Part shown: positions 2,476 to 28,213 of the stretch, in pieces | How the letters are laid out: each line of letters begins with the position of its first letter | Numbering within the stretch: the first letter of the stretch is position 1 | From: a virus | DNA length: 50,420 bases | Direction: 5' to 3' (one strand) | Virus record (IMG/VR): IMGVR_UViG_3300037502_002849 | Coordinates: 1 to 50,420 of that record | Notes under the pieces: generated by a model | Database searches by the model: none | What the model was told of the DNA's origin: nothing | What the model saw: only the letters and a program-made list of their open reading frames with translations | Position numbers and translations under genes: made by a program

Positions 2476-2506
2476 AGAAAGTATCGATGTAAAAAATAAG
2501 TAAGTG

Positions 2507-3613
2507 ATGGAAAATAAATCACTGTGTGTTTTGCCGTTTTATCATATGGATATACAACCAAACGGAGTTGTAAAACCCTGTTGTGAATTTTCTCTAGATG
2601 AAATGCCAAGATCAGTTAATGTAAATGACCCCGCTGTTTTTGAATCCGTATTTTTTGAAGATCTACGAAAAAAGATGGCCACTGGTATTCCGATCAAAGG
2701 TTGCAAAAAATGTTATTTTAATGAAACATACTCAAAGAATAGTTTAAGGTTGGAGCATTTAGATAATTTTAAAAAACTATCCGGTAAAGATTTTACAGTG
2801 CCTCTAAAAAACGAATTGGTTTATGTAAATCTTGCACTTAGTAACGTATGCAATAATAAGTGTAGAATGTGTAATAGTCGATTTAGTACCAGTTGGTATG
2901 ATGATGAAAAAAAATTAGGTATAGATATTCCTAAAGGTGTAGTTAATCAAACAACATTTTTTAATTTATTAGATACATCAAAAATAAAATTTGTAAATTT
3001 AACTGGCGGAGAGCCATTATTAGAACAAAAAAAAATAATTGATTTTTTGAATAACTGTAATTTAAAAGAACTAACATTAATCATTACTACAAACGTTACA
3101 GTCATTCCAAATGATGATCTTATTAGTTTATTAAAAGAATGCAAAAAAGTAGAGTGGACTTTGAGTATTGATGCTTACGAATCCTTAAATGATTTTCTTA
3201 GAAAGGGAAGTAATTGGGACGATACTACAAAAAATCTAAGTTGGTACTATAACAATTTTGAACATATCAAAATCAATACAGTAATAAGCATTTATAATTG
3301 TAACTGTTACGATTTACTTTTAGGATTTATAAAAAATAATTTTCCTAAAATAACACACATTCATAGATTGGCTGATGGAGCAGAATGGCTTAGCGTGAAA
3401 AATTTACCCAACTATGCCAAACAAATAATAAAAGAAAAAAATGATTTTATCAAAAATGTTTACAAACTAAATTTTTCTAGTATAATAGAAGCTGAAATAG
3501 ATAAAGAAGGTAACTTGGAATTTTTTAAAGATATGGATCAAAAACTTAACAAGATAAGAAATGAATCTTGGAAAGATCATAATCCAGAACTCTACAAATT
3601 GATTTATGACTAA
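2507..3613 (+). CDS. Radical SAM protein with extra Cys clusters
   Basis: About 368 residues. The CxxxCxxC motif (C115, C119, C122) binds the 4Fe-4S cluster that cleaves S-adenosylmethionine, and TGGEPLL further on is the SAM-binding GGE motif. The N-terminus has additional cysteines (C7, C25-C26, C66, C69) in a QPNGVVKPCC context, as in twitch/SPASM-like auxiliary-cluster domains that usually come after the core; here they precede it. The annotated frame can start at a GTG (2504), but the adjacent ATG at 2507 is preferred. It ends one base before tRNA-Ser(GCT). Such proteins modify peptides, RNA or small molecules; the target here is unknown. Locally this gene is notably AT-rich. Confidence 0.85.
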   Translation: MENKSLCVLPFYHMDIQPNGVVKPCCEFSLDEMPRSVNVNDPAVFESVFFEDLRKKMATGIPIKGCKKCYFNETYSKNSLRLEHLDNFKKLSGKDFTVPLKNELVYVNLALSNVCNNKCRMCNSRFSTSWYDDEKKLGIDIPKGVVNQTTFFNLLDTSKIKFVNLTGGEPLLEQKKIIDFLNNCNLKELTLIITTNVTVIPNDDLISLLKECKKVEWTLSIDAYESLNDFLRKGSNWDDTTKNLSWYYNNFEHIKINTVISIYNCNCYDLLLGFIKNNFPKITHIHRLADGAEWLSVKNLPNYAKQIIKEKNDFIKNVYKLNFSSIIEAEIDKEGNLEFFKDMDQKLNKIRNESWKDHNPELYKLIYD

Positions 3614-4597: not shown

Positions 4598-5227
4598 ATG
4601 AGATACGCTTGTTTTAATCCTACTATGGTCGCTGTAGAGGATATTCCAGAAGACATTTTTGATAAACTTAAAAATCTAGTTCGAGAAGCACATACTCATG
4701 ACGATCTTAATGATGCAGGAAATCCATCAATAAGCGTCAGAGGCGGTCAGCAGATTCAATTATTGCCCAACATTTTTGATTTAGACGTGACTGATTTAAA
4801 AAAGTATGTTGAAGATTGTTGTAATGAATATTTAGAAAAAATTGTACAGGTCACTGGTCTTAATGAACTTTACAAATACAAGCCTGTGCTGAACAGTGCT
4901 TGGACTATAAAACAATCTAAAGGACACTATCAAGCTCTACATGCACACGAAGCGCACATTAGTGGCAACATTTATATTGATGTGCCTGATTTAGATTCTG
5001 ATAGTGAAGATTCAGACAGTTGTCTAGAGTTTAGATTACCCACAGTTAAAAATGTTTCTAGATTCATCTTTACTGATAGTTGGAGAGTTAAACCTGAAGT
5101 AGCTAAAATGGTAGTATTCCCCAGTCACTTACCACATACTGTTTATCCGTGGAAAGGCAAAGGCAGTAGAACTGTTCTAGCATGGGACGTTGTTTTAGTT
5201 GACAAGACGTTGGTGACGGATATATAA
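4598..5227 (+). CDS. Putative 2-oxoglutarate/Fe(II) oxygenase
   Basis: 209 residues resembling the phage/bacterial 2OG-Fe(II) oxygenase-like family (TIGR02466 type). Such enzymes use Fe(II), oxygen and 2-oxoglutarate to hydroxylate a substrate. Visible parts are a HAHEAHISGNIYI segment near residues 114-127 carrying the first iron histidine, the distal PSHLPHTVYPW segment near residue 176 carrying the second, and an arginine in GSRTVLAWD for 2-oxoglutarate. The double-stranded beta-helix layout and length fit. An acidic insert (DLDSDSEDSDS) lies between the motifs. Substrate unknown; roles in DNA base, tRNA or protein hydroxylation are possible. Confidence 0.7.
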   Translation: MRYACFNPTMVAVEDIPEDIFDKLKNLVREAHTHDDLNDAGNPSISVRGGQQIQLLPNIFDLDVTDLKKYVEDCCNEYLEKIVQVTGLNELYKYKPVLNSAWTIKQSKGHYQALHAHEAHISGNIYIDVPDLDSDSEDSDSCLEFRLPTVKNVSRFIFTDSWRVKPEVAKMVVFPSHLPHTVYPWKGKGSRTVLAWDVVLVDKTLVTDI

Positions 5228-5246
5228 TATAAGATTAATAGTTTTA

Positions 5247-6398: not shown

Positions 6399-6476
6399 GC
6401 GGGTAGACAGGACAAGGGGCGTCCAGCAGCCTTCCAAGCTGAAGATCGCGGAGTTCGACTCTCCCTACCCGCTCCA
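6399..6476 (+). tRNA. tRNA-Gly(TCC)
   Basis: Acceptor GCGGGTA/TACCCGC, anticodon stem GCAGC/GCTGA (ending in a C-A... four pairs) with loop CTTCCAA (anticodon TCC), T-loop TTCGACT, discriminator T, encoded CCA. The T-stem CGGAG/CTCCC has one C-C mismatch. Confidence 0.88.
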
Positions 6477-7287: not shown

Positions 7288-7340
7288 AGAATGCTAACAG
7301 CAATCACTAACTTTACTGCAAATAAAGAAAAACGCATTCT
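7288..7340 (+). promoter_or_regulatory. Third copy of RNA motif in Ro gene leader
   Basis: AGAATGC (7288-7294) pairs with GCATTCT (7334-7340). It is preceded by GTTAGTTTTATAG and followed by TAACAGCAATCAC, and A-rich sequence precedes the 3' strand, exactly as in the two RNAs upstream. The hairpin ends immediately before the ribosome binding site (GAAAGG, 7341-7346) of the Ro gene at 7354. A protein that binds this motif could block its own translation; that is inference. Confidence 0.55.
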
Positions 7341-7353
7341 GAAAGGAAACATC

Positions 7354-8763
7354 ATGAACACATTCGTTCAAGCAATCGCAAATCAAGAAGCCCGTACTGC
7401 CAATGGCATGAAGGCTCGTAAGTCAACTGCTAAGGCAACTGTTGACTTGTTCTACAAAATCGGTGCAAGTCGTGGTAAGGACATTACTGCTGACTTTGTG
7501 GCTGCTTATGTAGAAAATTCTGACCTTGCACTACGTATCGCACAATGGGCACGTGATGTCCGTGGCGGTGCAGGCGAGCGTCAACTTTTCCGTGACATCC
7601 TTGTTCATTTGGAAAAGCGCGATCCAGATGCCGCATTGGCTCTGCTTCGTAAGATTCCAGAAGTAGGTCGTTGGGATGACATCTTTGTTTTCTCTACACC
7701 AGTTCTGAAGTCAGCCGCTTACACAATGTTGGGCGATGCCCTACGTGCTAAGAATGGCCTTGCCGCTAAGTGGACACCACGTAAAGGTAAGGTTGCGGCT
7801 GAAGTGCGAGCATTCTTCGGAATGACTCCTAAGCAATACCGTAAGAGTCTTGTGACTCTTACCAAAGTTGTTGAAACACAAATGTGTGCCAACGACTGGG
7901 ATAACATTAACTTTAGCCATGTGCCTTCTGTGGCAGCTCGTCTGTACAAGAAAGCATTCAACCGTCATACTCCAGCTTTTGCTGAGTATGTGGCTAAGTT
8001 GGTAAGTGGTGATAAGACTGTTAAGGTTAACGCCGATGCAATCTTCCCACATGATGTTATCAAAGGTATCGCACACTCATATGTGAAGCATGACAAGACT
8101 GAAACAGATCATGTCATCGCACAATGGGAAGCTCTGCCAAACTACGTTGGTGATGCCAGCATCATGCCAATCGTTGACGTTAGTGGATCTATGACTTGTC
8201 CAGCAGGTAAGAACACAAACGTTCGTTGTTTGGATGTGGCACTTGGTCTAGGCCTGTACTTGGCTGACAAGAACAAGGGCGTGTTCAAAGACACATTCTT
8301 GACTTTCTCAGACAAGCCAGAATTGGTTACTCTAAAGGGTAACATTGTTCAAAAGCTAGAACAAATGTCTAAGAGCGATTGGGAAATGAGTACTAACCTA
8401 AATGCGGCTATGAAGAAAATTCTAGACGTTGCGGTTAAAGGCAATGTCCCACAAAGCGACATGCCAAAGATGTTGCTGATTTTGTCAGACATGCAGTTCA
8501 ACCAGTGTGCTCGTTTCGACGACAGCGCAATGGAAATGATCGAACGCAAGTTTGCGGATGCAGGTTATACTGCGCCTCAAATTGTGTTCTGGAACCTAAA
8601 CGCAAGTGATAACGTTCCAGTCAAGGCTGACAAGTCGGGTGCGGCTTTGGTCAGTGGATTTAGTCCTAGCATAATGACAGCCCTGCTGTCAGCTGACTTG
8701 GATCAGTTCACTCCAGAAGGTATTATGCTTAAGACTGTAATGGTCCCACGCTACGACCTTTAA
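7354..8763 (+). CDS. rsr: Ro60-like TROVE/vWA RNA-binding protein
   Basis: 469 residues. The N-terminal half (about 1-265) is a TROVE domain with characteristic segments VDLFYKIGASRGK, ALRIAQWARDVRGGAGER and IPEVGRWDDI. The C-terminal half is a von Willebrand A domain with a MIDAS motif DVSGS at about 275-279, and LILSDMQFN further on. In bacteria such Ro (Rsr) proteins form a ring that binds misfolded RNAs and Y RNAs and works with nucleases in RNA quality control. The frame is open to 7291, but the ATG at 7354 has a GAAAGG ribosome binding site, and the extra segment is the RNA hairpin element. Two structured RNAs lie directly upstream. Codon choice looks more GC-rich and regular than neighbours, suggesting high expression. 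A terminator follows. Confidence 0.9.
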   Translation: MNTFVQAIANQEARTANGMKARKSTAKATVDLFYKIGASRGKDITADFVAAYVENSDLALRIAQWARDVRGGAGERQLFRDILVHLEKRDPDAALALLRKIPEVGRWDDIFVFSTPVLKSAAYTMLGDALRAKNGLAAKWTPRKGKVAAEVRAFFGMTPKQYRKSLVTLTKVVETQMCANDWDNINFSHVPSVAARLYKKAFNRHTPAFAEYVAKLVSGDKTVKVNADAIFPHDVIKGIAHSYVKHDKTETDHVIAQWEALPNYVGDASIMPIVDVSGSMTCPAGKNTNVRCLDVALGLGLYLADKNKGVFKDTFLTFSDKPELVTLKGNIVQKLEQMSKSDWEMSTNLNAAMKKILDVAVKGNVPQSDMPKMLLILSDMQFNQCARFDDSAMEMIERKFADAGYTAPQIVFWNLNASDNVPVKADKSGAALVSGFSPSIMTALLSADLDQFTPEGIMLKTVMVPRYDL

Positions 8764-8817: not shown

Positions 8818-8846
8818 TTGACAAAATCAAAATATTATCGTATAAT
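8818..8846 (+). promoter_or_regulatory. Consensus sigma70-type promoter
   Basis: TTGACA (8818-8823) and TATAAT (8841-8846) with a 17-bp spacer, immediately after the terminator. It drives the phosphatase-metallophosphoesterase run starting at 8868. Confidence 0.9.
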
Positions 8847-11138: not shown

Positions 11139-11600
11139 ATGCCTAAATGTTATCAACTAGTCGGAATCCCAGGTAGTGGAAAGTCTACCTGGGTTGCCAA
11201 TCAAGATTGGCTTGATGGAACACACTATGTTTCTACAGATAGTTATGTAGAAGCCTATGCCAAAAGTCAAGGTAAAACTTACTCTGAAGTATTTGTTGAA
11301 TACATGCCCACAGCAGTTGATTTAATGGTGGAGGATGTTATTAGGGCAAGAGAAGCCGGATTGGATATTATTTGGGATCAAACATCAACCACTGTCAAAA
11401 GTCGGTTGAAGAAGTTCAATATGTTGCCCGATTATTATCATATTGCTATAGTATTTGGAACACCTGAACAACAGGAATTATATCGTCGATTGATGAGCCG
11501 TCCAGGCAAAGACATTCCGGATCATGTTATTGCCAGCATGATTGCCGATTTCGAAATGCCTACAGAAGAAGAAGGTTTCAAAGAAATTTGGAGAACTTAA
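11139..11600 (+). CDS. P-loop kinase, polynucleotide kinase-like
   Basis: 153 residues with Walker A GIPGSGKST (residues about 9-17), a DTDSY-type acceptor region (STDSYVEAYA), and DQTSTTVKSR near residue 87, where T4 PseT-like kinases place their substrate-contact residues. This is the fold of the polynucleotide 5'-kinase and zeta-like kinases: it transfers phosphate from ATP to a nucleic acid end or small molecule. No phosphatase domain is attached, but separate phosphatases are encoded upstream (8868, 9573). A terminator overlaps its stop. RNA end healing is a reasonable but unproven role. Confidence 0.75.
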   Translation: MPKCYQLVGIPGSGKSTWVANQDWLDGTHYVSTDSYVEAYAKSQGKTYSEVFVEYMPTAVDLMVEDVIRAREAGLDIIWDQTSTTVKSRLKKFNMLPDYYHIAIVFGTPEQQELYRRLMSRPGKDIPDHVIASMIADFEMPTEEEGFKEIWRT

Positions 11601-11625
11601 GGAGCTTTTTGGCTCCTTTCTTTTT
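11599..11625 (+). terminator. Rho-independent terminator
   Basis: AAGGAGC (11599-11605) pairs with GCTCCTT (11612-11618), followed by TTCTTTTT. Its T-run merges into the -35 box of the next promoter. Confidence 0.88.
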
Positions 11626-11652
11626 GACAAAACTGTCAAGTTATCATATAAT
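11624..11652 (+). promoter_or_regulatory. Consensus sigma70-type promoter
   Basis: TTGACA (11624-11629) and TATAAT (11647-11652), spacer 17 bp. The start would be at about 11659, the first base of the tRNA-like element. Confidence 0.9.
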
Positions 11653-11658
11653 TACAAT

Positions 11659-11769
11659 GCAGACGTGAGTGGAATATGGTAGACCTCCTCCGAAGCTCTT
11701 CGGAGCCTAGGAGGGAAGGGCAGGTGACATTGTCATGCCTTGTAGGTTCGACTCCTACCGTCTGTACCA
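11659..11769 (+). ncRNA. tRNA-like RNA without anticodon loop
   Basis: GCAGACG (11659-11665) pairs with CGTCTGT (11759-11765), then A and an encoded CCA. The T-arm is GTAGG/CCTAC around TTCGACT. The D-arm region (AGTGGAATATGGTAGAC) resembles class II tRNAs. Where the anticodon arm should be is CCTCC + TCCGAA with a 4-nt GCTC loop, pairing to TTCGGA + GGAGG with a GCCTA bulge, so no 7-nt anticodon loop exists. A long variable arm (GGCA...TGCC with TGACA/TGTCA) follows. It therefore looks like an expressed tRNA mimic, processed and aminoacylatable in principle but unable to decode. An unusual intron is the main alternative. Confidence 0.68.
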
Positions 11770-11795: not shown

Positions 11796-12125
11796 ATGAA
11801 AAAGGCACTAATTGCATTTTTGATCATTCCCTTTACTGCGTATGCACAACAGTGGGACTTTGATAACAGTGGTAGTAGAATTTTTGACATGCGCAAAAAT
11901 GAACAAAAGAAAATTACGATTACTATCGAAAGTGTAGAACCCAAAGACATGCAACGAGCCTGCGATAAGAAAAGCCGTCAACTAGGAAACGGCGGATTTA
12001 AAACTCCTATGTTGGCTTGTAGTTTCTGGGAAGGTAAAACCTGTCATATTATTATGCCTCACAAAGTAGACATGCGAACTGTGGGTCATGAAGTTATGCA
12101 CTGTTTCCAAGGTAGTTGGCACTAA
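11796..12125 (+). CDS. Secreted HExxH metalloprotease-like protein
   Basis: 109 residues with a Sec signal peptide (MKKALIAFLIIPFTAYAQ, likely cleaved after Ala17). The mature part ends with TVGHEVMHCFQGSWH, where HEVMH at 98-102 is a zinc-binding HExxH motif. Three Cys-containing segments could form disulphides in the periplasm. Third zinc ligand is not obvious, and the protein is short for a full metalloprotease, so activity is uncertain. AAGAAAGG precedes the ATG. It shares the promoter at 11624 with the tRNA-like RNA. Confidence 0.7.
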   Translation: MKKALIAFLIIPFTAYAQQWDFDNSGSRIFDMRKNEQKKITITIESVEPKDMQRACDKKSRQLGNGGFKTPMLACSFWEGKTCHIIMPHKVDMRTVGHEVMHCFQGSWH

Positions 12126-16873: not shown

Positions 16874-17461
16874 ATGCCACATCTAGTACCTATTGTAGTT
16901 GAACAAGAAAGCAGGGGCGAGCGCAGTTATGACATTTATAGTAGACTGCTTAAAGATCGTATTGTGATGTTAGACACTGATGTTAATGAACACAGTGCCA
17001 GTTTGATTGTAGCACAACTATTATTTTTAGAAAGTCAAGGAAAAGAGGACATTACATTTTTTATTAACAGTCCTGGTGGTGTTGTTACTGCTGGCATGGC
17101 AATTTATGATACAATGCAGTTTATTCGTCCCGATGTTGCTACGGTAGTTATGGGACAGGCTTGTAGTATGGGTAGCTTGTTAGCACAAGCTGGCGCTCCT
17201 GGAAAACGTAAGATGTTGCCCAATGCTCGCCATATGATTCACCAGCCTAGTGGTGGTGCTCGTGGGCAGGCTACAGACATGCAGATTCAAGTTGAAGAAA
17301 TCTTGAAGATGAAAAAGTCACTGACTGAAATCTATGTTAAGCACAATTCAAAAGGTAAGACTTTTGATCAACTTAGTGCAGATATGGAGAGAGACAAATT
17401 TATGAGTGCTGAGGAGGCACTGGCTTACGGATTGATCGATGAAATTGTAACTAGCCGATAA
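16874..17461 (+). CDS. clpP: ClpP protease subunit 1
   Basis: 195 residues, full-length ClpP. Catalytic triad visible: Ser98 in GQACSMGSL, His123 in [10 protein letters not shown], Asp174 in [11 protein letters not shown]. The oxyanion-region [16 protein letters not shown] is present. ClpP forms a barrel-shaped peptidase that degrades proteins unfolded by ClpX/ClpA; with a host ATPase it could remove host or phage proteins. AAGGATAAAC precedes the ATG. A second, divergent clpP gene follows after 27 bp. Confidence 0.95.
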
Positions 17462-18120: not shown

Positions 18121-19428
18121 ATGCATCAAATTATTGCCAAACTAGAAAGCGATAACAGCCGCCTTTTCAAAGAGAGTGTTATTGCTGAAGAAATGGCTAA
18201 TAACAATACGGAGTTTTTTGAAGGCATTAAACTGTGTCTTAGTCCGTTTGTGACGTTTGGTGTTAAAAAAGTTCCCACTCACGGTGGTCCAGATGGTCAA
18301 GGCTTACCTTGGGGTGTATTTGCCAAACTAGCAGATCAACTGGCCAAGCGTGAACTCACAGGTCATGATGCACGTGATGCTATTGAGTTGTGTCTTAAGA
18401 CTGCTAAACAGGACGAATGGAATTTTTGGTACCGTCGAATACTGATCAAAGATCTGCGTTGCGGTGTTAGTGAAAAAACTATCAACAATGTAGCAAAAAA
18501 ACAAAAACGTAAAGAATTTGAAGTGCCATTATTTACTTGTCAACTGGCTCATGGATTTGAAGATCATGAGTCCAAAGCCACAGGTAAACGGTATGTAGAA
18601 GTCAAGTTAGATGGTGTTCGTGTATTAACTATTGTTTACCCAGATGGCAGGGTCGATCAATACAGTCGTAACGGTAAAGAGCTAGTAAATTTCGAACATA
18701 TCAAAGAACAAATTAGTAAAACTGCAAGTCAGTTTGGTGAAGCTGTAGTACTTGATGGTGAAGTGATGAGTGCCAGTTTTCAGGATCTTATGAAACAGGT
18801 TCATCGTAAAGACAATGTATCTGCAGGTGATGCCGTTTTGCATTTGTTCGATATTGTTAGTCTTAAAGATTTTCAATCAGGAAAAAGCAAAGTTCGACAA
18901 GAAGAACGTAGCGAGCGTGTATATAAGTGGCATAAAGCCAACAAAGATGCACTGCCAAATGTTGCAGTAGTAGGGCATGAACTTGTTGACCTTAGCACTA
19001 GCGAGGGGAAAAAACGTTTTAAAGTGATTAATCAGTCCGCCATTGAAGGTGGGTATGAAGGCATTATGATTAAGGATCCAGATGCCGCGTACGAATGTAA
19101 ACGTACTACTAGTTGGTTAAAATTAAAACCATTTATTGAAGTATCATTAGGTATTCAAACTGTAGAAGAAGGAACTGGAAGAAATGAAGGAAGACTTGGA
19201 GCCTTTGTTTGTGAAGGTGAGGACGACGGAAAAAACATCCGTGTTAATGTTGGCAGTGGTTTTTCTGACAGTGACCGTGATGTATTCTGGACTTCACGTC
19301 CTAAACTCATTGGGCAAATCGTTGAAGTGCGAGCAGATGCAATTACACAAAACCAAGACGGATCATACAGTCTCCGGTTTCCACGCTTTTTGCGTTTCCG
19401 AGGATTCGAAGTTGGAGAAAAACTTTAA
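18121..19428 (+). CDS. ATP-dependent DNA ligase
   Basis: 435 residues. The nucleotidyltransferase core has motif I EVKLDGVR (adenylated Lys about 162), motif III-like VLDGEVM, motif IV EGIMIKD, and motif V WLKLKP, followed by an OB-fold C-terminal domain. The N-terminal DNA-binding domain contains DLRCGVSEKTINNV. It seals nicks during replication and repair, the role of T4 gp30. TCTGGAG precedes the ATG. Length and motifs match the phage ATP-ligase group. Confidence 0.94.
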   Translation: MHQIIAKLESDNSRLFKESVIAEEMANNNTEFFEGIKLCLSPFVTFGVKKVPTHGGPDGQGLPWGVFAKLADQLAKRELTGHDARDAIELCLKTAKQDEWNFWYRRILIKDLRCGVSEKTINNVAKKQKRKEFEVPLFTCQLAHGFEDHESKATGKRYVEVKLDGVRVLTIVYPDGRVDQYSRNGKELVNFEHIKEQISKTASQFGEAVVLDGEVMSASFQDLMKQVHRKDNVSAGDAVLHLFDIVSLKDFQSGKSKVRQEERSERVYKWHKANKDALPNVAVVGHELVDLSTSEGKKRFKVINQSAIEGGYEGIMIKDPDAAYECKRTTSWLKLKPFIEVSLGIQTVEEGTGRNEGRLGAFVCEGEDDGKNIRVNVGSGFSDSDRDVFWTSRPKLIGQIVEVRADAITQNQDGSYSLRFPRFLRFRGFEVGEKL

Positions 19429-19829: not shown

Positions 19830-20504
19830 ATGAACTACAGTATGTCAGCCGCAGAAAGTCTCAATGTCGCCGTAGCAGGTGTATTAGGCAGGATGGGAGT
19901 TGGTGTATTGGCGACCCTTGTTATGGCCGCAGTCATCCAAAGCCTAGGTCTAGTACCTGTGCTATTCGGTGGCATATTGGGTTATGTTATTATCTTTGCT
20001 CCCCTTGCTATGAGTCTTTTCCTAGCTTGGAAAGGATCTGAAATGAGCGAGTCAACCATTAAAGCATGGTACTTTGCTTTTGCTGGAGCTATGGGTTTGA
20101 GCCTTAGTATGATTTTTCAAATTTACACTGGTGCTAGTATTGCTATGGCACTTATTGGTACTACAGTAAGTTTTGGTGCCTTGGCATTTTGGGGATACTT
20201 TACTAAGAAAGATATTTCAGGTTGGGGGCCATTTTTGTTTGCAGGTGTTATTGGCCTAATTGTTGCAGGTATTGCTAATATTTTTATCGCTAGCACAGCA
20301 CTACAAATGACCTTGAACGTCATTACTATTCTTGTGTTTCTTGGTCTTACAGCATATGATATGAACAGAATTCGAGATATGTTTTGGAGTGCTGATCAAG
20401 GTGAGATTGCTCGTATGCAATGGTTCGCGGCATTGAGCTTGTATATCAATTTTATCAATATTTTTGTAAGTCTCCTGCAACTTTTTGGAAGTAAAAACGA
20501 ATGA
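19830..20504 (+). CDS. Bax inhibitor-1/YccA-like membrane protein
   Basis: 224 residues with about seven hydrophobic helices. The pattern, including GFVTLG-type small residues, ITILVFLGLTAYDMNRIRDMFW near 165-190 and the C-terminal FAALSLYINFINIFVSLLQLFG, is characteristic of the BI-1/YccA/TMBIM family (conserved TAYD-[MT]-xxI). E. coli YccA modulates the membrane protease FtsH; other members form pH-sensitive Ca2+ leaks. A phage copy might protect phage membrane proteins or alter lysis timing; this is inference. AAAAGGAAATAAA precedes the ATG. ATGA overlap with the next gene. Confidence 0.88.
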   Translation: MNYSMSAAESLNVAVAGVLGRMGVGVLATLVMAAVIQSLGLVPVLFGGILGYVIIFAPLAMSLFLAWKGSEMSESTIKAWYFAFAGAMGLSLSMIFQIYTGASIAMALIGTTVSFGALAFWGYFTKKDISGWGPFLFAGVIGLIVAGIANIFIASTALQMTLNVITILVFLGLTAYDMNRIRDMFWSADQGEIARMQWFAALSLYINFINIFVSLLQLFGSKNE

Positions 20505-27181: not shown

Positions 27182-28213
27182 ATGATTAAACGTATCGGTT
27201 TTGCCTGCAAATGGATTGATTTCCCCCACCAAGTTGATGGGATTGGTCCCAAAGACGACTGTAAAAAATACAATACTGGTGGCACTACAGTAGCTTGGTT
27301 AAATAGACAGAGTCGACAAGTTGCAGAAGAAAAACTATGGAATCTTATGAAAGATAACATAGAAAGTATTCGTAAACTTGTTGAACGTGTCGGAGGGTTA
27401 GATGATGAACTACGTATGGTTCGTATTAGCAGTGACGTCTTGCCTGTTTATACTGAGCCTACTTGGTCTTACTTTTGGCGTGATCCTGGAGCTATTCGGT
27501 ATGCAGAGCAAGCATTTGGACAGGTCGGAGATTTGGCTAGAAAAAACAACGTTAGGTTGTCTTTTCATCCTGGCCAGTTCACCGTTCTTGCTAGCGATAA
27601 TCCAGATATCGTTAAACGCTCAATAGAGGAGTTCGAATATCATGCAGATATGGCCCGTTGGATGGGATACGGTAAACAATTTCAAGACTTCAAGATCAAT
27701 GTCCACATCTCGGGTAGACAAGGTCCAGCCGGTATCAAAAGCGCACTTGGGCGTCTCTCACCAGAAGCGCGAAACTGTATTACTATCGAAAACGACGAAA
27801 TGTCCTGGGGAATCGACGCTAGCCTCGAACTATGTAACGATCTCGCTTTGGTGTTAGATATACATCACCATTGGGTTAAGACTGGAGAATATATTAGTGC
27901 CAAAGACGACCGTGTTAAAAAAGTTATTGACAGTTGGCGTGGTGTGCGTCCTGTTATTCATTACAGCGTTAGCCGTGAAGATGTACTCGTCGGTCATGAT
28001 GCTACCAATCGCCCAATCCTGGAGTCTCTGTTAGAAACAGGACACAAAAAAGCCAAACTTAGGGCGCACAGCAACTTTTACTGGAACAAGGAAGTCAATG
28101 ACTGGGCTCTAACATTCCGCGATAATTTTGATATTATGTGCGAATCAAAAGCTAAAAATCTAGCCAGTTTCAAACTATACGAATATGCCAATGGACAGTC
28201 TAGGCTGGTCTAA
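27182..28213 (+). CDS. uvsE: UV-damage endonuclease UvdE
   Basis: 343 residues of the UvdE/UvsE family, a TIM-barrel endonuclease that nicks DNA 5' of UV photoproducts. Recognisable parts: IGFACKWIDFP start, RLSFHPGQFTVLAS near residue 120, NVHISG, TIENDEMSW and VLDIHHHWV with metal ligands, and LRAHSNFYW near the end. Length is normal. Located after the glycosyltransferase with a 18-bp gap; overlaps the next small ORF. Light-exposed aquatic hosts make this gene useful. Confidence 0.92.
   Translation: MIKRIGFACKWIDFPHQVDGIGPKDDCKKYNTGGTTVAWLNRQSRQVAEEKLWNLMKDNIESIRKLVERVGGLDDELRMVRISSDVLPVYTEPTWSYFWRDPGAIRYAEQAFGQVGDLARKNNVRLSFHPGQFTVLASDNPDIVKRSIEEFEYHADMARWMGYGKQFQDFKINVHISGRQGPAGIKSALGRLSPEARNCITIENDEMSWGIDASLELCNDLALVLDIHHHWVKTGEYISAKDDRVKKVIDSWRGVRPVIHYSVSREDVLVGHDATNRPILESLLETGHKKAKLRAHSNFYWNKEVNDWALTFRDNFDIMCESKAKNLASFKLYEYANGQSRLV

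Follow-up and report, generated by a model that had tools for sequence, protein, structure and literature searches.

A conserved family of tRNA-like phage RNAs with a variable hairpin in place of the anticodon arm

What could a phage gain from an RNA that has the acceptor end and T-arm of a tRNA and no anticodon loop? The question is raised by a 111-nt tRNA-like RNA encoded in the window, by which we mean the whole stretch of DNA analysed here, a virus record of 50,420 bases (Table 1). The original prediction described a tRNA mimic with a canonical acceptor stem and T-arm, an encoded CCA and a long variable arm, and every one of these elements is visible in the sequence. We confirm that the RNA is real and that its features are present as first described, with one refinement in the shape of the hairpin (below).

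Fold, family and promoter of the RNA

Table 1. Features of the tRNA-like RNA and its surroundings in the window.
Feature	Position	Strand	Evidence
Terminator-like stem plus T-run where the upstream kinase gene ends, ahead of the RNA promoter	11599..11618	+	
Sigma-70 consensus promoter, TTGACA - 17 nt - TATAAT, predicted start 11659	11624..11652	+	12-of-12 match
Whole tRNA-like RNA, 111 nt	11659..11769	+	sequence, Rfam tRNA score, R1 score
Acceptor stem 5' strand, partner 11759-11765	11659..11665	+	covariation
D-arm region GAGUGGAAUAUGGUAGACCUC; LeuRS-type A14 A15, G18 G19, A20a; D-stem weak	11667..11687	+	
Hairpin replacing the anticodon arm, UCCUCC-GAA-GCUC-UUCG-GAGC-CUA-GGAGGG; no anticodon loop	11686..11715	+	
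Variable arm, long (25 nt), two-part, last base U48	about 11717..11741	+	
T-arm, GUAGG-UUCGACU-CCUAC	11742..11758	+	
Acceptor 3' strand, discriminator A73 (11766) and encoded CCA (11767-11769)	11759..11769	+	
Small-protein gene, signal-peptide-like start, GHEVMHCFQG motif, 26 nt past the CCA	11796..12125	+	

Like a tRNA, the RNA has a 7-bp acceptor stem (GCAGACG/CGUCUGU, a G1-U72 wobble and six Watson-Crick pairs), a T-arm with a UUCRA loop and a CCA end; unlike a tRNA, it has no 5-bp anticodon stem with a 7-nt loop carrying U33. The minimum-energy structure at that position is an arm with a UUCG tetraloop on top of a 3x3 internal loop, so that the 4-nt loop of the predicted extended hairpin stands while its single bulge is replaced by the internal loop. 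With the acceptor stem and T-arm enforced, the folding energy was -40.4 kcal/mol compared to -42.8 kcal/mol for the unconstrained fold, a gap of 2.4 kcal/mol, and in the unconstrained fold the D and T arms were mispaired. ARAGORN called 17 ordinary tRNAs in the window and left this RNA uncalled. Checked against tRNA models, as the original prediction had suggested, the RNA scored 21.7 bits with the Rfam tRNA model (RF00005), below the cut-off of 29, and Rfam 15 contains no family for it beyond that sub-threshold match; support for the fold came instead from covariation and from our own covariance model, R1, which gave 100.9 bits for a sequence that was part of its training. A tRNA-Gly(UCC) called by ARAGORN at window positions 6399-6476 also fell under the Rfam cut-off, at only 27.1 bits.

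We looked for homologues in viral contigs. A D-arm pattern found 45 stretches, of which 30 yielded complete relatives and one more (L079) runs off its contig end. R1, applied to 50 virus records, produced 28 matches of at least 53.7 bits; 15 were known from the pattern and 13, from the other 35 records, were new, although one of these (L018) had already turned up by blast. Weaker R1 matches in these records (at most 39 bits) resembled ordinary class II tRNAs, and the single one inspected (L273) was a tRNA-Leu. Among the loci brought in by two further patterns, the RNA was present in 73 of a first set of 80 (scoring 42 bits or more) and in 76 of a second set of 77 (54 bits or more). Altogether we gathered 113 distinct sequences, 112 of them with complete ends and all from viral contigs, in 211 locus copies that include some contigs counted twice. 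The RNAs are 90-119 nt long. The homologues that the original prediction had looked to related phages for are plentiful in phages from environmental samples, and its description of a tRNA mimic with CCA and without an anticodon loop holds for a conserved family.

In an alignment of 16 sequences, 95.4% of paired cells could pair and 60 were changed on both sides, against a mean of 16.6 in shuffled alignments. In a 98-row alignment, which was fitted to R1 and leans towards the model, 94.5% of paired cells could pair and 477 were changed on both sides; shuffling gave 138, and none of 500 shuffles reached the observed value. Acceptor pairs changing on both sides numbered five of seven in the smaller alignment and six of seven in the larger. 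Covariation in all arms indicates that these RNAs are a conserved family, and homologues of this kind rule out a chance fold. A73 was present in all 112 complete relatives and an ACCA end in 95; in most of the other 17 the CCA would have to be added or repaired. The D-stem of the main clade is weak, with a U12-C26 mismatch, and can reach 4 bp (GAGC/GCUC) in some relatives.

Six blastn queries against cultured-phage records returned no full relative, only matches to the T-arm, the terminator or other parts, or none at all. Among the matches listed for host genome contigs, 80 loci contained no strong R1 match and three weak ones, of at most 34.6 bits. We found no account of such an RNA in the open-licence literature, and as far as databases and that literature show, the family is unreported.

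The original prediction also assigned the RNA its own consensus promoter with the start at base 1, and this was borne out. In the window the two boxes lie at 11624-11629 (TTGACA) and 11647-11652 (TATAAT), placing G1 at the seventh base past the -10 box. This is one of four 12-of-12 sigma-70 matches within the first 14 kb of the window, the others being at 467-495, 5199-5228 and 8818-8846. A -10 box matching at 5 or 6 of 6 positions lay 5-8 nt ahead of G1 in 106 of 111 relatives, and exactly 6 nt ahead in 90 of those 106; the same test was positive for 80 of 608 ordinary tRNAs of these loci. With the box so fixed, initiation alone could yield the mature 5' end in nearly all relatives. Expression of the window RNA is predicted from this promoter.

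The arm in the anticodon position

Across relatives, the arm that replaces the anticodon arm ranges from 11 to 36 nt, the shortest being UCC-GAAA-GGG in a 90-nt RNA (L271). The 112 caps comprise 15 C(UUCG)G, 4 G(CUUG)C, 16 GNRA-like loops, 19 CYCAYAG loops on an extended arm, and 58 others. A strict canonical arm, with a 5-bp stem, a 7-nt loop, U33 and an adjoining D-stem, is possible in only three relatives (L375, L416 and L422), and a laxer anticodon-arm test was passed by 15 relatives versus 573 of 596 ordinary tRNAs. ARAGORN called 21 of the 112 as tRNAs, with inconsistent anticodons that lay inside helices or tetraloops. We infer that the decoding end of the RNA is a dummy on a tRNA-like L fold.

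An intron spliced out to leave a standard anticodon, which the original prediction had named as grounds for giving up its own reading, finds no support in the inconsistent contents and lengths of the arms, many of them plain tetraloop hairpins, or in the rarity of the strict arm; Rfam gave no intron family match at the anticodon position of the window RNA.

Two features of the arm deserve separate mention. The CYCAYAG loop stays constant in its 19 relatives (L275, L374 and L309 among them) while the stem below it changes, and in these the loop itself may matter. In L375, L416 and L422 the central triplets UUA, UCA and CUA would pair with the three stop codons, and the U at position 37 is uncommon among tRNAs. 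Stop recoding was not clearly evident from the coding density of these three loci, where standard-code coverage was 0.78-0.81, compared to 0.78 in L078.

Leucine identity, neighbouring genes and possible roles

We asked which aminoacyl-tRNA synthetase might recognize the RNA. Passages of one review (PMC9976931) list the determinants of leucine identity in E. coli as A73, the A15-U48 pair, G18G19, A20a and contacts between the D- and T-loops, with the anticodon unused, and report that tRNA-Leu stripped of both its anticodon arm and its variable arm continues to accept leucine. We scored A73, A14/A15-U48, G18G19, A20a, U54:A58, U55 and C56, applying E. coli rules. The set was complete in 112 of 112 relatives, the window RNA included, a figure that is partly by construction since D-loop motifs were in the search patterns and T-loop motifs in the extraction. 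U48, which lay outside the search patterns, was present in all 112 relatives versus 8 of 42 tRNA-Ser, and all 10 relatives that R1 was the first to detect had the full set. Among ordinary tRNAs of the same phages, the set was complete in 59 of 63 Leu, 0 of 42 Ser and 3 of 9 Tyr tRNAs, and also in 15 of 46 Thr, 12 of 49 Met, 8 of 24 Ala and 6 of 19 Ile tRNAs; this simplified set is not unique to Leu. By the D-arm alone, the nearest isotype was Leu for 41 of the 112 relatives, Pro for 30, His for 27 and Thr for 13, and the T-arm, mostly nearest to Pro or Cys, was uninformative. An origin from tRNA-Tyr, suggested by a GUA-like loop in L018 and L268 and by T-arm blast matches to Aeromonas phage tRNA-Tyr, was dropped, Leu being the better match to the D-loop, U48 and A73.

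Since recognition by E. coli LeuRS depends on A73 and the D/T elbow, with no part played by the anticodon, we predict that host LeuRS charges the RNA with leucine. This lends indirect support to the earlier suggestion that the RNA could serve tRNA enzymes as a non-decoding substrate and provide aminoacyl-RNA. Counting against the main reading set out below are the sharing of the LeuRS set with other isotypes, the mixed isotypes of D- and T-arms, and the weak D-stem of the main clade.

Taken at the sequence level, the family is a conserved phage RNA gene with a tRNA-Leu-type body, a promoter fixed to the first acceptor base and a freely varying hairpin. We hypothesize, with about even confidence, that it specifies a leucine-chargeable, non-decoding tRNA mimic that works off the ribosome, most likely as a decoy; both charging and function are what we infer. 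The RNA would fold as a tRNA-like L with a dummy decoding end and be loaded with leucine by host LeuRS. Unable to decode, it would accumulate off the ribosome in charged form, perhaps bound to EF-Tu, and once abundant could lure enzymes that hold tRNA by its elbow, long variable arm or CCA tail away from the tRNAs on which the phage depends. Candidate targets are tail-cutting or acceptor-modifying defences and variable-loop nucleases. Targets of this kind do exist: Septu cleaves the variable loop of tRNA-Tyr (PMC13096335), and Cas12a3 cleaves CCA tails, recognizing tail, acceptor and T-arm, with cleavage unimpaired by loop removal (PMC12851939). We hold such a decoy role with low confidence. 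A decoy for host anticodon nucleases, as the original prediction had proposed, fits badly, because the anticodon that these enzymes cut is missing; enzymes gripping the elbow, variable arm or CCA fit better. At somewhat under even confidence, the family may represent a widespread class of phage effectors in which a tRNA-Leu has become chargeable, leaderless and promoter-driven, titrating or feeding LeuRS, EF-Tu or tRNA-attacking defences, its former decoding arm left free to vary. If so, this would be a natural phage tRNA, present in many phage contigs, that gave up decoding and kept charging; it would have been overlooked because annotation tools expect an anticodon, and it would allow a direct test of off-ribosome tRNA roles in phage-host conflict, whether as nuclease bait or as leucine donor.

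Some tRNAs supply enzymes of peptidoglycan or antibiotic synthesis, and the charged RNA might likewise feed leucine to a non-ribosomal enzyme such as an N-end-rule leucyl transferase or an acyltransferase. Retention of the full LeuRS set despite the loss of decoding is consistent with such a donor, and the ClpP-type protease encoded in the window (16874-17461) would suit N-end-rule use. We nonetheless consider it unlikely: no leucyl/phenylalanyl transferase (PF03588) was found in 26 RNA-bearing records, all fragments or of unknown completeness, although a host enzyme could serve, and no aminoacyl-using partner gene consistently adjoins the RNA.

The gene downstream bears on whether the RNA is free or acts in cis, as a tRNA-like 5' untranslated region that protects or regulates the mRNA of the next gene. 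In the window that gene encodes a small protein with a GHExxHC motif and no match in Pfam or PHROGs, whose family adjoins the RNA downstream in many relatives. Sufficient downstream sequence was available for 110 of the 112 relatives, and a downstream protein was found for 100. The HExxHC motif occurs in 42 of these 100, small proteins whose start resembles a signal peptide; Hc1-like histones account for 21 (in L260, L275 and others), and the remainder are varied. This steady closeness to a secreted-type protein or histone-like gene in many phages would suit a cis role, as would the promoter just upstream and, in the window, the lack of any terminator-like site ahead of the next gene. The gene that follows differs between relatives, however, and an ordinary tRNA begins within 44 nt of the RNA 3' end in 22 of 110 of them, an arrangement best explained by processing to a free RNA; nor would a leader need an invariant A73 or a mostly encoded CCA. 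With neighbours that vary beside an RNA that persists, and with the RNA able to take a place in tRNA arrays, we favour a processed free RNA and regard a cis-acting leader as distinctly unlikely.

Immediately upstream of the RNA in the window is a polynucleotide-kinase-like gene, and 3 kb upstream is a Ro60/TROVE homologue (phrog_850, 7291-8763); both fit tRNA damage and repair, as circumstantial evidence. The window further encodes a radical-SAM protein (2504-3613), an ATP-dependent DNA ligase (18121-19428), a Bax1-I family protein (19830-20504) and a UvdE endonuclease (27182-28213). Bacterial Y RNAs with tRNA-like parts tether or gate Ro60, and the phage RNA could be a partner of this sort for the phage Ro60, whose gene was present in 18 of 34 records searched. 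Its distribution, 15 of 26 RNA-bearing records versus 3 of 8 without a strong RNA match (one of the three weak), all of them possibly fragments, counts against this idea, and so do the ends of the RNA, which pair as an acceptor stem with CCA and not as a Ro-binding helix; we consider a Ro60 partner highly improbable. An Rfam scan at E <= 1 gave no Y RNA match.

Least probable is an unusual decoding tRNA (a long-armed Leu, a suppressor or a frameshifter) or a decaying tRNA gene, for which the CYCAYAG loops and the three stop-reading arms might speak, and against which stand the many tetraloop hairpins, the erratic ARAGORN anticodons, a coding density with no clear mark of recoding and, for decay, the strong covariation and conserved promoter.

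Comparison with known systems

The proposed non-decoding mimic can be set beside several known RNAs. The tRNA-like domain of tmRNA is likewise a tRNA mimic with CCA and without an anticodon. The family RNA differs in having neither a coding part nor the G3-U70 alanine pair: pair 3:70 is G-C in 70 of 112 relatives, A-U in 42 and never G-U, which rules out a tmRNA identity, and ARAGORN's tmRNA search found none in the window.

T4 species 1 RNA (rnaC) is also a small phage RNA in a tRNA cluster, with an acceptor-like stem, a long arm and a T-arm in its 3' part. It differs in being 139 nt long with a 5' extension and no CCA at its annotated end, and its T-loop is not conserved, being absent in Kc304. 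We rejected homology because rnaC scored only 17.3 bits with R1, lower than three ordinary tRNAs of the same locus. In the T4 copy (L444, 1409-1547, - strand) the folded 3' part contains no clear anticodon arm, and rnaC matches occurred in 720 phage records. Passages of two papers call the role of T4 small RNAs C and D unknown (PMC9697503, PMC3014915), and the present family offers a comparison for both.

Bacterial Y RNA (YrlA) is similarly a tRNA-like RNA in genomes with Ro60, whereas the family RNA has a closed acceptor stem and CCA. A tRNA-like partner is mentioned in passages of a jumbo-phage paper (PMC7824862).

Phage tRNAs form a further point of comparison, as they too may counter host attack. 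Some, reportedly described by van den Berg et al. in 2023, evade tRNA-targeting defences; these keep decoding with a changed anticodon loop, whereas the family RNA has no such loop.

The closest parallels are with leucine tRNAs. Truncated E. coli tRNA-Leu constructs likewise lack the anticodon arm, have the acceptor, D/T elbow and A73 and, in the review cited above, remain chargeable with leucine (PMC9976931); they are artificial, whereas the family RNA is natural, phage-borne and keeps its long variable arm. With class II tRNA-Leu itself, the RNA shares the acceptor with A73, A14/A15, G18G19, A20a, U48, the T-loop, a long variable arm and an encoded CCA, and it differs in its 11-36 nt variable hairpin in place of the anticodon loop, its weak D-stem and its promoter fixed to base 1. 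By score and by anticodon arm the RNA falls outside the tRNAs, yet it probably acts like tRNA-Leu up to the step of charging.
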